This document shows positions 2,974-9,824 of a stretch of DNA of 48,008 bases, piece after piece. How positions within the stretch are numbered: position 1 is the first letter of the stretch; the number at the start of each line of letters is the position of its first letter. Both the position numbers and the translations under genes were made by a program. The DNA lies in IMG/VR virus record IMGVR_UViG_3300006224_000013, positions 1 through 48,008 of that record; one strand, written 5' to 3'. The notes beneath the pieces were generated by a model, which was not told the DNA's origin, made no database searches, and was given only the letters and a program-made list of their open reading frames with translations. The DNA is from a virus.

Positions 2974-3375
2974 TTAGTAGGGGATGTCGTCGGGCAGGTC
3001 GATTGCCGTGCTGTCCACCGCTGCGAGGTCGGCAGCGAGGTCGTCGGCGGTTGTCGTCCAGATGGGCTTGCGTGATACCCCGATTCCCAACGTCGTCTCG
3101 CCGTAGACGTTGGTGAAGTTGCGGACGGTGAGCCCGTGGTTCTCCAAGACGGTCGCGTTGGCAATGAGCTGGCGCACCAGCTCTGCCCGTGCATCGCTGG
3201 GGCTCAACTTGTTGGCGGCAGCGAAGTACTCCGCCATGCTGGCGAAGCGGCGGCTCAGTGGCGTCCGGTCAGCGCTCTGGGTGTCACCCCAGGTCACGTC
3301 CCTGAGGACTCGCGCGTACCCGGTACGCTCGACTCGTAGGCTCCAGAAGCGGAGAACGAACTCGACGAAACCCAT
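2974..3375 (-). CDS. Hypothetical protein with SSB-like acidic C-terminal tip
   Basis: A 133-residue protein whose last residues read AAVDSTAIDLPDDIPY. Bacterial single-stranded DNA-binding proteins end in an acidic tail closing with D-D-I-P-F, which recruits repair and replication proteins, and this tail matches it apart from Phe to Tyr. The body (residues 1-105) is not an obvious OB-fold by eye, though segments such as HGLTVRNFTNVYGETTLGIG look like paired strands. The gene has an excellent ribosome site (AAGGAAGGAG), stands alone, and is closed by a strong terminator, as expected for an abundant DNA-binding protein. It borders the repeat-rich control region. SSB or SSB-mimic is an inference. 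Confidence 0.6.
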   Translation of the reverse strand: MGFVEFVLRFWSLRVERTGYARVLRDVTWGDTQSADRTPLSRRFASMAEYFAAANKLSPSDARAELVRQLIANATVLENHGLTVRNFTNVYGETTLGIGVSRKPIWTTTADDLAADLAAVDSTAIDLPDDIPY

Positions 3376-3426
3376 GGCTCACTCCTTCCTTCGGGCGGAG
3401 GAACTCTCCTCCCGGGCCAGGTGGTC

Positions 3427-4103
3427 TGAACCCCTGAACCACAAAAGAATCAGGTAAGAAAATAAGGCAGCAGGAAGAACTGAAAACCCCAAAGGATGAA
3501 GGTGGTGGCGTTAGGCTCTATGATTACGCTGGAGCTGTCTCGCAATGCTGTACTTTTGCTGCCCTGGCGGACGTGCGGAGGATCAGCGTCTGACTATCAT
3601 CGCGGGGTGGACGGGTCCCCTACCCCCCGGATCCTTGTCTGACTCCCCCGCCCCCTATTGACACTGCAGAACTCTAAAAAATTTTTGGAAAAATGAAAGC
3701 CCTTTTCCTCACCCCGCCACTGGAGAGGAGCGGTTAGACCGTTCCGTGCGCGGGAGCCCCCCAAAGAGGGGCTCTTCAGCAGAGCGGAAAACGCGCCATT
3801 TCTTAATGGTTCACGTGGTTGAACCAGCTGAGGAAATTTTCTCCTCCTAAGTCCTTTCTTTTCAATGTCTTTCTCCCTGGTTCACTCGTTTGAACCAGTA
3901 TGAACCACCCTTTGGGTTCATCTGGGTGGTGCACTTCTTGGTATAAGGCGGAATGAACCACCTGAACCAGGGGCAGAGCCCAATTCCCGGAACTCCTTTA
4001 TTTCCAACGCGTTCCCAACTGGTTCATCTGGTTCACCCCGATGAACCACTTTGAACCAGTGCCCCGCGAAAAGGGCGAACCAGGGGGCTGCAGACGCGAA
4101 CCA
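3427..4103. repeat. TGAACCA / TGGTTCA heptamer array with 20-bp dyads
   Basis: Exact heptamers in either orientation start at 3435, 3807, 3820, 3878, 3891, 3901, 3954, 3963, 4020, 4029, 4042 and 4052; one-mismatch copies start at 3427, 3914, 4076 and 4097. Three pairs form TGGTTCA-N6-TGAACCA dyads (3807-3826, 3878-3897, 4029-4048) and one forms the everted version (3901-3920). Tandem copies are spaced 9 or 10 bases start to start. Constant spacing implies a dimeric or multimeric binding protein. Candidates are a repressor, a replication initiator or the adjacent TerS. Confidence 0.85.
3939..3947 (+). promoter_or_regulatory. Possible extended -10 promoter within the heptamer array
   Basis: TGGTATAAG matches the extended -10 pattern TG-n-TATAAT with one mismatch and points rightward. 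There is no good -35 box, which extended -10 promoters can lack. The predicted start would fall near 3954, exactly on two heptamer copies (3954, 3963), so bound protein would occlude it. Confidence 0.35.
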
Positions 4104-4211
4104 GGAAAACGAGCCCCTTTTGCCGCTTGTCTCTGGTATCTTCGCTTCCGGCATGGGGGGAACCGCGCTTCCTCTTGCATCCTACCCCCTCCTCCACCAT
4201 GCAGGGGGGAG

Positions 4212-4240
4212 TTGTGCGTTTCCTCCATGCCGAGTATTCT
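4212..4240 (+). promoter_or_regulatory. Possible promoter for a leaderless terS transcript
   Basis: TTGTGC (4212-4217) and TATTCT (4235-4240) are 17 bases apart; the match to consensus is modest (3/6 and 4/6). The predicted start of transcription coincides with the ATG at 4247, and that ATG has no ribosome site upstream. Spacing and missing ribosome site agree, but the boxes are weak. Confidence 0.35.
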
Positions 4241-4246
4241 TCTCCC

Positions 4247-4687
4247 ATGGCTGAGGAAAAACCCCCTCCTTCCCAACAACAGCAGAAGAAGGTCGCGGAA
4301 CTGCGCACAGCGCTGATCGCCATTGAAAAGGCGATGGGCCGGAGCGTGAAGGAAATCAGCGAGAAATACCGCGTTTCTCCGGAGGGCGTGAAAAGGGCGC
4401 TGGAACTCGCGACGGAAACCGGCTTCATCGATCACTACCGGGCGTTGCTGTATGACAATCTCGCTCCCAAGGTCCTTGCCGTGTACGAAGCGCATCTGAC
4501 CATGGGATCTTTAGAAGCGGCGCGGGATCTCGCGTTTGGCCTTGGGATTCTCCAGAAGAATGGGGATGCCCAGAAAGTAAAAGGCCGTATAATCGACACG
4601 TTGGACGCGTATCGAGCGGAACGGGCGCGGAAACTGCCCCCGTCTCGTCCAACGGAGGAGATCTCCGATGCTACGGTCATCCAATGA
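4247..4687 (+). CDS. terS: Putative terminase small subunit
   Basis: 146 residues from the ATG at 4247 (MAEEKPPP). The frame is open upstream to 4127, but that stretch looks like the tail of the control region. Small terminases recognise the phage DNA end and regulate the large subunit. Here residues about 34-55 (VKEISEKYRVSPEGVKRALE) look like a helix-turn-helix, followed by a helical segment (LEAARDLAFGLGILQKN) and a basic stretch typical of oligomerising TerS proteins. It is the first gene of the late operon, shortly before the large subunit, the usual place. No signature proves it; a transcription regulator is the alternative. Confidence 0.6.
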   Translation: MAEEKPPPSQQQQKKVAELRTALIAIEKAMGRSVKEISEKYRVSPEGVKRALELATETGFIDHYRALLYDNLAPKVLAVYEAHLTMGSLEAARDLAFGLGILQKNGDAQKVKGRIIDTLDAYRAERARKLPPSRPTEEISDATVIQ

Positions 4688-5853: not shown

Positions 5854-7487
5854 TGACAGGGAGAGACCGGATTTCTTTCGAAGAAGCCATCAGCGAGCGG
5901 GCGCTCTTGCGCGTGAGGTTTGAGGAACTCGCCTTCCCGCAGAGGGTCGCGCTGAAGCTCATGTATGGCGTCCCGCTCTCCGCGCGGAACACCGACGAGA
6001 AAACCGGCTTCACGGAGATGGATTTGTGGCGGATCTTCCATGGCGCCTGCGATCGCGATGACCACGGCTTCATCACGAAGATCCATGACACCGGATTCCC
6101 GGAATACAGGCCCAAGGAATATCGGGAAGCGTGGCTGATTGTCGGACGAAGAGCTGGGAAAACCGATGCCTTCGCGGCGACGATCGTGGCCTATGAGGCG
6201 ACCTGCGGCGGGCACGAGCGATTCCTGCGCCCCCGACAGCAAGGCATCTGCTTTCAGATTGCCCAGGATCTCCGGATGGCGCGGAACAGCCTGCATTTCG
6301 TGCGCGCTGTCCTGGAATCCTCGCCCCTCCTCGAAAAGGAGATGGTGCAGATCACGGCGGATCGGATTGACCTGAAAAACCGCTTCACGATCTCCTGCGT
6401 GCCGGCAACGTTGAAGAGCGTTCGTGGCTTCGCGTCTCCGGTCTCCGTCTTGGACGAAGTGGGCGTCTGGTATCAGGAAGCGGAAAGCGCGAATCCGGAC
6501 TATGAAATTTACCGCGCGTTGAGCCCAGGGCAAGTCCAGTTCCCCGATCGCAAGATCGTAGGCATCTCCACTCCTTGGAACAAGGCGGGCCTCCTGTATC
6601 AGTATGCAGAGGCTGGCACTGAAGGATGGAAGCTCTACCACGACGCGCAACGCGAGCAATACCGTGAAGTCCTCGTGATCGTCGGCTCTACTGCGGTCAT
6701 GGGGAATCCCCTCGTCACCAGGGAATTCCTCGTCAGGGAGCGGGAACGCGATGAACGCGCCTTTGAGCGCGAGATCCTCGCGGAGTTCCAGGATTCGATC
6801 TCCGGCTTCATTCCCACTGTGCTCGTGGAGCAGGCCCGCGATCACGACGTGTTCGAACGCCCGTACAACCCCAAGTGGACGTATTACCCCGCGATCGACC
6901 CCGCATTCCGCCGCGACGCCTTTGCGTTCACGATTGTGCACAATGAACAAGGAGTCGTTGTGCAGGATGCCGTGCGGCGATTCATCGCCCGTTCCGGAGA
7001 GGTCCTTTCTCCCGCGGCGATCCTGGATATCCTCGTGCCGCTGCTCTTGGAATACCGTTCCTCTGTGGTCTATTCCGATCAATACCACCTGGAATCCTTG
7101 GGCCAGCTTCTGAGGATGAGAGGAATTGAAATCATTCCTGTCACCTTCACGTCCAAGAGTAAGAGCCAGCTCTTCGGCAACCTCCAGCAGCTCTTCCTGC
7201 AGAAGAAGATCCGCCTTGTTGACGATGGAGAAACGATCCGAGAGCTGAAGAGCCTTGAACGCACGCTCACGGGAGGCGGTTCCGTCCAGATTTCCGCGCC
7301 GCAAGGGCTCCACGATGACATGGCCAGCGTCTTGGCGTTGGCGGTTTCCCAGGCCATGTTCGATGGAGATGGACGGATGCTTCAGGATGTGGCAGGATCC
7401 GCGAAGGAACCGACAGTGCATGAGCGCTGTCTGGAACAAGTCCAGCAGAAGTGGACGGGATTAGGGGCGCTCTCCGCATGGGATTAA
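5853..7487 (+). CDS. terL: Terminase large subunit (ATPase-nuclease)
   Basis: 544 residues, typical for the family. The packaging ATPase has Walker A GRRAGKT at 98-104, Walker B VSVLDEV at 197-203 (D201, E202) and the coupling motif ISTPWNKAG at 238-246. The C-terminal RNase H-like nuclease, which cuts concatemeric DNA, shows its three acidic positions in AIDP (D349), YSDQY (D409) and LHDDMA (D488/D489). All catalytic residues appear present, so the protein should be active. It works at the portal vertex with TerS. The start at 5853 overlaps the preceding stop (TGATG). Confidence 0.95.
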   Translation: MTGRDRISFEEAISERALLRVRFEELAFPQRVALKLMYGVPLSARNTDEKTGFTEMDLWRIFHGACDRDDHGFITKIHDTGFPEYRPKEYREAWLIVGRRAGKTDAFAATIVAYEATCGGHERFLRPRQQGICFQIAQDLRMARNSLHFVRAVLESSPLLEKEMVQITADRIDLKNRFTISCVPATLKSVRGFASPVSVLDEVGVWYQEAESANPDYEIYRALSPGQVQFPDRKIVGISTPWNKAGLLYQYAEAGTEGWKLYHDAQREQYREVLVIVGSTAVMGNPLVTREFLVRERERDERAFEREILAEFQDSISGFIPTVLVEQARDHDVFERPYNPKWTYYPAIDPAFRRDAFAFTIVHNEQGVVVQDAVRRFIARSGEVLSPAAILDILVPLLLEYRSSVVYSDQYHLESLGQLLRMRGIEIIPVTFTSKSKSQLFGNLQQLFLQKKIRLVDDGETIRELKSLERTLTGGGSVQISAPQGLHDDMASVLALAVSQAMFDGDGRMLQDVAGSAKEPTVHERCLEQVQQKWTGLGALSAWD

Positions 7488-7750: not shown

Positions 7751-9824
7751 CGAGCTAGCTGAGGAATCGCTCGGCATGCCGCTACCGGACGAGCTTTCCG
7801 AACAGCTCGATTACGAGGCGCTCGCCGCCGAGACGAAGGAAAAGCGTTCCCGCTGGCGAACAGAACGCCAGGTGCATGAACAGGAATGGTTCATCAACGC
7901 GGCGATGTTCCGCGGGAACCAGTACGTGGAATGGGACGACCGGTACAACCGGCTGACCGTGCCGAAGGCGCCACCGCATAGAGTGCGCCTGAAAATCAAT
8001 CGTCTGCAAGCGAAGATCCGTGCCCGACTCTCGAAATTCCTCAAAAACCGGCCGAAGCCCTTCGTGGTTCCTGCCACGAACGAGTATGCGGACTACCAGA
8101 ACGCGAAGGCCACACAGAAGGTCCTCGACTACCTGTGGCGAAAGCTGCGCCTGGAACACAAATACAAGGATGCCCTCCTGTGGGCCATGGTCGCCGGAAA
8201 AGGCTTCTGGTGGTTCCATTGGGACCCGACCGCCATCGCCAGAGTCGTCACCGAGGGAGAAGCTGGTCTGCCCGTGTATACGGATGAACCTCTTGGAGAT
8301 CCTGCCATAGAGGTGGGCAGCCCGTTTGAGGTGCTCGTGGCAGATCCTGGCATCCCCGATATCGGGGATCAGCCTGAGATCATGAGGATCAAGATTCGGG
8401 ATGTGGAGGAGATGCGGCAGCGCTACCCTCAGATTGCGGAGGATATCTCTGCCTCAAAGGGTGAAGAGAGCTATTTCACCTATGAACGCCAGATTGCCGG
8501 GCTGAATCCGTATTCCTACTCCACTGGAGGAAAGGAAGATCAGCAGGATTCTGTGCTCGTGACGGAGCATTTCCTGGCTCCGTGCGGGAAATACCCGAAA
8601 GGGCAATATCGGGTGCTCGTCGGGGACGTGGTGGCCAAGATTGAAAACCAACTGCCCTACGGCTTTGCCGATCTCCCCAATCCATTTCCGGTTGTTGAGT
8701 TCTTCGATATCAAGGTCGCCGGGCAGTACTGGTGCCCCACGGTCTGTGCGCAGCTCATCGACCTGCAAAAAGAATACAACCTCATGCGGTCGAAGCTGGC
8801 GGAGAACCTCCGGCTGATGGCGCACCCGAAGATCATTGTTGCCAAGCAGCATCAGCTGCCGAAGAGCAGCTGGACGTCGGAGGCGGGCGAAATCATCGAA
8901 TACGTGGCGATTCCGAACCTGCCGCCTCCGCAGCCCTGGGTCCCCCCGAACGTGGCGGCAGACCTCTGGCGCAATGTCGAGCTGCTGCAGAAGGAATTCG
9001 ACGACGTCACGCAGATCTTTCCGGCTTCAGAGGGGAAAGTCGGAACCGCCACGAGCGGGTTCCAGACGAATCTCCTGCAGGAAGCCACGGATTCCGTTCA
9101 CGCGCCAGACATTCGCCAGGCAGAGATCACCGTTGAAGAGGCTGCCTTCAAGCTGCGGAGGATGGCCAAGCTCGGCTATGACGTGCCGCGCCTGATTTCC
9201 GCCACGGGGAAGGACTACGCGGCAGAGGTCTTTGAGTTCGTCAACGATCAGATTGATGAAATGGCTGATGTCATCGTGGAGGTGGGCAGCGCCCTCCCCA
9301 CGCTGAAAGCCGCGAAGCAAGACGCGGTGATGAATTTGTTCAAGGTTGGGATGCTTGGGGATCCGGCGGATCCGGCCGTGAGGGCGCGAGGAATGAGCCT
9401 CCTGGAGATGGGTTCTCTGGAAGAAGGCTTTAACTTCGCGAAGACGGATGAAAACCAAGCTCGAATGGAAAACAAGACTCTCGGCACGGGTGCGCCGATT
9501 GACGTCCCGCACTTCTGGGAAAACCACCAGATCCACTACGACGTCCATACGAACATCCTGAAGAGCCCGGAGTCGCAAGCGTGGCCCCCGGAAATCCGGC
9601 GGGCCCTGGTCGCGCACACAATTCTGCATGCGCGATTCATCAACCCCCAGTCTGCGATGCAGGTCGCGATGGAGGAAGGCATTCAAGAGGTGGTCCCAGC
9701 CATTCAGGCGATGCTCCCACCGCCGATGCCTCAAATGCCCGGAGGACCGCCGCAAGGGCCTCCTCCGCCTCCTCCCGGCCCGCCTCCTCCTGACCAAGGG
9801 GGACCACAAGGACCACCCGTATGA
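7728..9824 (+). CDS. Portal protein
   Basis: 698 residues, close to the size of P22-type portals, which form the dodecameric ring at the head vertex through which DNA is packaged and ejected. Recognisable features are the N-terminal helical region with FRGNQYVEW, a conserved GKGFWWFHWDP segment, the LIDLQKEYNLMRSKL helix typical of the stem/crown junction, and ASEGKVGTATSG followed by a long helix. The C-terminus is an unusual proline-rich tail (about residues 655-698, including PPPPPPGPPPP) that is probably disordered. It follows terL and its stop overlaps the scaffold start (ATGA), both expected for a portal. Confidence 0.9.
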   Translation: MNGGEEINELAEESLGMPLPDELSEQLDYEALAAETKEKRSRWRTERQVHEQEWFINAAMFRGNQYVEWDDRYNRLTVPKAPPHRVRLKINRLQAKIRARLSKFLKNRPKPFVVPATNEYADYQNAKATQKVLDYLWRKLRLEHKYKDALLWAMVAGKGFWWFHWDPTAIARVVTEGEAGLPVYTDEPLGDPAIEVGSPFEVLVADPGIPDIGDQPEIMRIKIRDVEEMRQRYPQIAEDISASKGEESYFTYERQIAGLNPYSYSTGGKEDQQDSVLVTEHFLAPCGKYPKGQYRVLVGDVVAKIENQLPYGFADLPNPFPVVEFFDIKVAGQYWCPTVCAQLIDLQKEYNLMRSKLAENLRLMAHPKIIVAKQHQLPKSSWTSEAGEIIEYVAIPNLPPPQPWVPPNVAADLWRNVELLQKEFDDVTQIFPASEGKVGTATSGFQTNLLQEATDSVHAPDIRQAEITVEEAAFKLRRMAKLGYDVPRLISATGKDYAAEVFEFVNDQIDEMADVIVEVGSALPTLKAAKQDAVMNLFKVGMLGDPADPAVRARGMSLLEMGSLEEGFNFAKTDENQARMENKTLGTGAPIDVPHFWENHQIHYDVHTNILKSPESQAWPPEIRRALVAHTILHARFINPQSAMQVAMEEGIQEVVPAIQAMLPPPMPQMPGGPPQGPPPPPPGPPPPDQGGPQGPPV

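Follow-up and report, generated by a model that had tools for sequence, protein, structure and literature searches.

A small phage protein with an SSB-type C-terminal tip and no detectable SSB domain

Our question was whether a small phage protein that ends much like a bacterial SSB is itself an SSB, or carries the tip of one on a domain of another kind. The E. coli SSB tip (SSB-Ct) is DDDIPF, and the SSB tail serves bacterial DNA metabolism as its common docking signal, calling in repair and replication enzymes. A preliminary description of this DNA had read the protein either as a divergent phage SSB or as a decoy displaying the tip to host partners.

The gene and its signals

The window, by which we mean the whole 48,008-base stretch of DNA analysed here, is a virus record of 62.5% GC from an uncultured tailed phage. 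It holds terminase, portal and capsid genes, and the relatives of the capsid among named phages are distant (Arthrobacter, Microbacterium and Cellulosimicrobium phages, at 26-29% identity). The gene of the SSB-Ct-like protein (P0001) lies on the minus strand at 2974-3375 and encodes 133 amino acids from an ATG start; the plus strand reading of the same interval contains internal stops. It is a real gene, as seen from its translation, its ribosome-binding site, its codon-position GC and its identity in two further contigs. The ribosome site GGAAGGAG stands ahead of the ATG (the sequence upstream of the start is CCGAAGGAAGGAGTGAGCC-ATG, and the site is placed at 3376-3392 on the minus strand as AAGGAAGGAG), while GC at the three codon positions (0.61/0.49/0.84) follows the pattern of the phage's sure genes such as that of the capsid (0.56/0.46/0.84). 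The two further copies come from the same virus, being 99.8-99.9% identical over 8-11 kb, and have 0 substitutions within the gene, so they give no evidence of selection. Elsewhere, in the terminase gene, contigs L004 and L006 share five substitutions relative to the window within the 25 bases at 6236-6260, all at third codon positions; a small tract recombined between strains is the probable origin.

Past the end of the gene and on the same strand, positions 2928-2964 hold an intrinsic-terminator-like hairpin of 15 pairs, 11 of them GC pairs, followed by the T run CCCCTTTTTC. The very strong ribosome site and the strong terminator that had been described for this gene are thus both present. 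Its description as stand-alone needs to be narrowed, as the gene is bounded by its own terminator, which separates it from the rest, but it is the first of a leftward block. A first gene that is followed by a terminator could also suggest a lambda N-like antiterminator, a candidate we rejected given that the protein is not basic (14 Lys plus Arg against 17 Asp plus Glu).

The C-terminal tip and its other carriers

All three parts of the protein are encoded on the minus strand. Residues 1-105 (3061-3375) make up the putative N-terminal domain, which is drawn from predicted helices, a hairpin and a DUF7742-like stretch at 52-110, a basis that is weak in all its parts. This is followed by an acidic, Ala/Asp-rich linker at about residues 106-125 (3001-3060), delimited by its composition and by a model confidence (pLDDT) mostly under 50, and then by the codons of the tip DLPDDIPY and the stop (2974-3000). 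The C-terminus reads ...ADDLAADLAAVDSTAIDLPDDIPY-stop and ends in STAIDLPDDIPY, with DSTAIDLPDDIPY as the tip peptide up to Tyr133. From residue 106 to 133 there are seven Asp or Glu and 0 Lys or Arg.

We scanned 2.9 million viral contigs for the codon pattern D[LF]PDDIP[FY]-stop and found 39 stretches, against 0 in the same contigs for the permuted control DPLDIDP[FY]-stop of equal degeneracy. Collapsed to distinct sequences, the 39 stretches give 35, and two of these are the 133-residue protein itself (one shortened by its contig piece). Among the 33 others, at least 17 keep a match to the SSB profile after their last 25 residues are removed, and further carriers belong to phage families that are OB-like or unknown (phrog_862, phrog_21613, phrog_993 and phrog_18154, the last of these having a single-strand DNA binding annotation). 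One carrier, at 3800-5875 of contig L135, is a DnaB-like primase-helicase (phrog_19, 1.5e-42) without any SSB domain, an example of the tip on a replication protein other than an SSB. Apart from the 133-residue protein itself, every carrier to which a function could be assigned is an ssDNA-metabolism protein.

The terminal residue of the tip is Tyr instead of Phe. This is also seen on carriers from L117 and L129, and DFPDDIPY ends the protein of L144, which is a Pfam SSB (PF00436, E=3.2e-14), so the Tyr can be taken as a natural variant. Given the 39 stretches against none, the SSB-type carriers and the Tyr on a confirmed SSB, the tip is, as judged from sequence, more than chance and a real SSB-type tip. 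The SSB-like end noted in the preliminary description is strongly supported by these statistics and by the other carriers.

The N-terminal domain and its relatives

The resemblance to bacterial and phage SSBs (PF00436) lies in the acidic linker and the terminal D-D-I-P-aromatic end, including the Tyr ending of L144. The rest is different, since this is a 133-residue protein with no detectable SSB or OB domain and no Gly/Gln/Pro-rich linker. Searches of Pfam and PHROGs returned no SSB family at E<=10 for the protein and no OB match for residues 1-118; they gave no helix-turn-helix family either, and a sequence search of the PDB gave no match. In a profile comparison with the SSB alignment, 21 of 60 shuffles scored as well as the real protein, and profiles of three other tip-bearing families compared with it no better than with shuffled sequence. 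The tip is therefore found here on a domain without an SSB profile match, as would be expected of a mimic or adaptor of the SSB tip.

A single-sequence AlphaFold2 model (pLDDT 59) has helices at 39-55, 59-72 and 74-79 and a hairpin at 82-88/94-100, with no barrel. Confidence is about 72-81 over residues 41-80 and falls below 50 in the tail and much of residues 13-35. Foldseek of the model against BFVD and PDB found nothing significant. When the top chains were aligned structurally they were mostly winged-helix domains (IRF, MarR/PadR/PurR/CtsR, MukE/JetB) with Z up to 5.2, a value that means little alone and comes from a poor model; the absence of OB chains from this neighbor list is weak evidence for the same reason. 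The model shares its helix-helix-helix-hairpin order with winged-helix DNA-binding domains, but the scores are weak and there is no sequence match. An OB-fold for residues 1-105 is thus unsupported, if still conceivable with so poor a model. The preliminary description was right to see no evident OB-fold in the N-terminal domain. Its suggestion of a divergent phage SSB finds no support, given the missing SSB and OB profile matches, the shuffle-level SSB comparison and the low-confidence model without a barrel. The half of that reading concerning display of the tip is likely.

Homologues, sought with the whole protein and with residues 45-106 in viral contigs, were found in the same virus only, the searches covering viral contigs, species genomes, phage records and plasmid records. 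In the phages related by TerL and capsid (L007, L010, L011 and L013) the region is not reached or the gene is absent. A related phage of 65 kb (G001) lacks a tip-bearing gene of this type; its match to the tip pattern falls within a structural region and was not accepted as a tip. The nearest family match is to DUF7742 (PF24891), with E=6e-4 and 20.3 bits (19.1 bits in another search), below the curated cut-off of 27. The score against this profile, 22.0, exceeded those of 60/60 shuffles and is nevertheless weak, and a second comparison gave 12.9 bits against at most 7.0 among 1000 shuffles. DUF7742 is a small gene adjoining a cysE-like gene in Pseudomonadota, where 14 of the 398 sampled genomes have it above the cut-off, and a search of phage records with one member found nothing. 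The similarity is weak, covers about residues 50-110 and falls below the cut-off, and the DUF7742 proteins lack both the tip and residues 1-45, so we regard the link, seen at the sequence level, as a weak one.

Genomic context and possible roles

The replication and recombination genes of the virus are seen in a second contig (L015), which reaches about 16 kb beyond the left end of the window. This added part encodes a PD-(D/E)XK exonuclease (Pfam 3e-9), a Sak4-like ATPase (PHROG 4e-8, a partial match over residues 160-249) and, at L015 9569-12250, a uracil-DNA-glycosylase domain fused ahead of a family A DNA polymerase (Pfam 4.9e-27 and 4.5e-28). These lie roughly 8-15 kb from the 133-residue gene, which is therefore outside this block, where an SSB gene is usually, though not by strict definition, found. 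At L015 7844-9413 the Sak4-like gene is followed by an ORF that overlaps it, at most 241 residues long and with no family match (8688-9413; about 210 residues from the more likely internal ATG). It has no acidic tip, gives no match to OB profiles and is beta-rich in a very poor model (pLDDT 34). By its place and strand content only, we infer that it is a better SSB candidate of this virus than the 133-residue protein, as a candidate only.

The repeat-rich region that the gene had been said to face is indeed there. The upstream intergenic stretch 3435-4058 contains 12 of the 19 TGAACCA heptamers of the window, against 3.9 expected in the whole window. They include three perfect TGGTTCA-N6-TGAACCA palindromes (3807-3826, 3878-3897 and 4029-4048; 20 bp, TGGTTCACTCGTTTGAACCA), and the array also holds direct-repeat pairs 9-10 bp apart. 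It begins 60 bp from the start codon and ends before a small-terminase-like gene at 4127-4687, named so from its placement and from weak helix-turn-helix matches. A role in packaging, in transcription as an operator or in replication as an origin is possible, and GC skew at the array gave no origin signal. Neither the gene nor TGAACCA is present at the matching place of the related phage L007. Its intergenic sequence there (4345-4468) has five copies of another heptamer, TGACCAA, so that the two phages may share the position of the array but not its motif.

We tentatively favor, at a little under an even chance, the view that the 133-residue protein is an accessory protein of the early phase, in which a small non-OB domain bears a docking tip of the SSB type. 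The gene, its tip, the non-random occurrence of the tip, its association with ssDNA metabolism and the missing SSB profile match are observed. The folded N-terminal domain would be non-OB and perhaps a winged-helix-like alpha/beta domain, and a short acidic disordered linker would carry the tip DLPDDIPY. The terminal aromatic residue and carboxylate would then enter the pocket in which SSB-partner proteins receive the SSB tail, and the docked partner would be brought to wherever the N-terminal domain is bound, with recruitment rather than inhibition as the presumed effect. Likely partners would be host enzymes of the SSB interactome, which includes RecO, PriA, RecQ, RecG, Exo I and HolC, or the phage's own Sak4-like recombinase. 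The latter may be the most economical choice, since the Sak4 of phage HK620 requires the six C-terminal residues of its cognate SSB (tail NDYPPF) on SSB-covered DNA (PMC5928155). The two phages are alike in that each encodes both a Sak4-like ATPase and a protein bearing such a tip, the HK620 tail being needed for Sak4 stimulation; they differ in that the HK620 SSB is bona fide and encoded beside sak4, while our gene, at a distance of about 10 kb, shows no SSB domain. Against the accessory protein stand the lack of any homologue among the searches to show the tip conserved in its family, a model built from one sequence, the partial Sak4 match and the absence of such a gene from G001.

The other readings each account for some of these data. 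It is unlikely that the protein is a phage SSB whose OB-fold, or other ssDNA-binding fold, has diverged past recognition, with the tip as its tail. The length and order of parts (a domain of about 105 residues, an acidic linker and a tip) would fit, SSBs make up most of the tip carriers that can be assigned, and the poor model leaves room for strands in the first 30 residues; but no SSB or OB profile matches, the model has three helices and one hairpin in place of a barrel, the structural list is (as weak evidence) free of OB-folds, and the gene is apart from the replication genes, which have their own small beta-rich protein beside Sak4. We give rather little weight to a decoy, whereby the protein would act early as an inhibitor, occupying the SSB-tip pockets of host RecO, RecQ, PriA or Exo I and so blocking repair or defence. 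The tip copies the docking end almost perfectly, and the early-type position, the strong ribosome site and a single unit bounded by a terminator would give high expression. However, a single SSB tip binds with modest affinity and would face plentiful host SSB; to compete, a monomeric decoy would have to reach high levels or make a further contact. The literature searched contained no phage protein of such kind.

Coincidence, with a function unrelated to SSB partners such as a DUF7742-like one, fits the weak match to that tipless family and the want of a homologue showing the tip under selection. It appears highly improbable, as an equally specific permuted tip is absent from the same viral collection and the other carriers of assignable function all belong to ssDNA metabolism. 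We also doubt strongly that a winged-helix protein binds the TGGTTCA-N6-TGAACCA array as a regulator or origin binder and that the tip recruits the replication machinery there. The model's neighbors are mostly winged-helix domains, the 12 sites start so close to the gene, and L007 lacks gene and TGAACCA alike; but Z is at most 5.2 on a poor model with no helix-turn-helix family match, the array is equally near the small-terminase-like gene and may be a packaging site, and L007 has its own array in the matching place. A bolder form, very doubtful, has such a protein sitting on its own palindromes and using the SSB-type tip to recruit replication or recombination machinery to a dsDNA site. If true, machinery would be called to dsDNA by a signal that normally marks single-stranded DNA.

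Should the accessory protein we favor be borne out, a docking signal would have been borrowed by a phage protein that is not an SSB, and viruses would be seen to lift this signal off SSB onto another domain, steering or blocking the same partners. The primase-helicases of L135 (3800-5875) and L138, which end in DLPDDIPF, are alike in having the SSB-type tip on a non-SSB protein and different in being large enzymes. The tip pattern could thus be a means to find more non-SSB carriers, L135 among them. Small phage proteins at L127 2578-2994, L149 9164-9478, L115 4347-4748 and L147 469-735, with no SSB profile match, end in FPDDIPF or LPDDIPF and are further candidates for display of the SSB tip.
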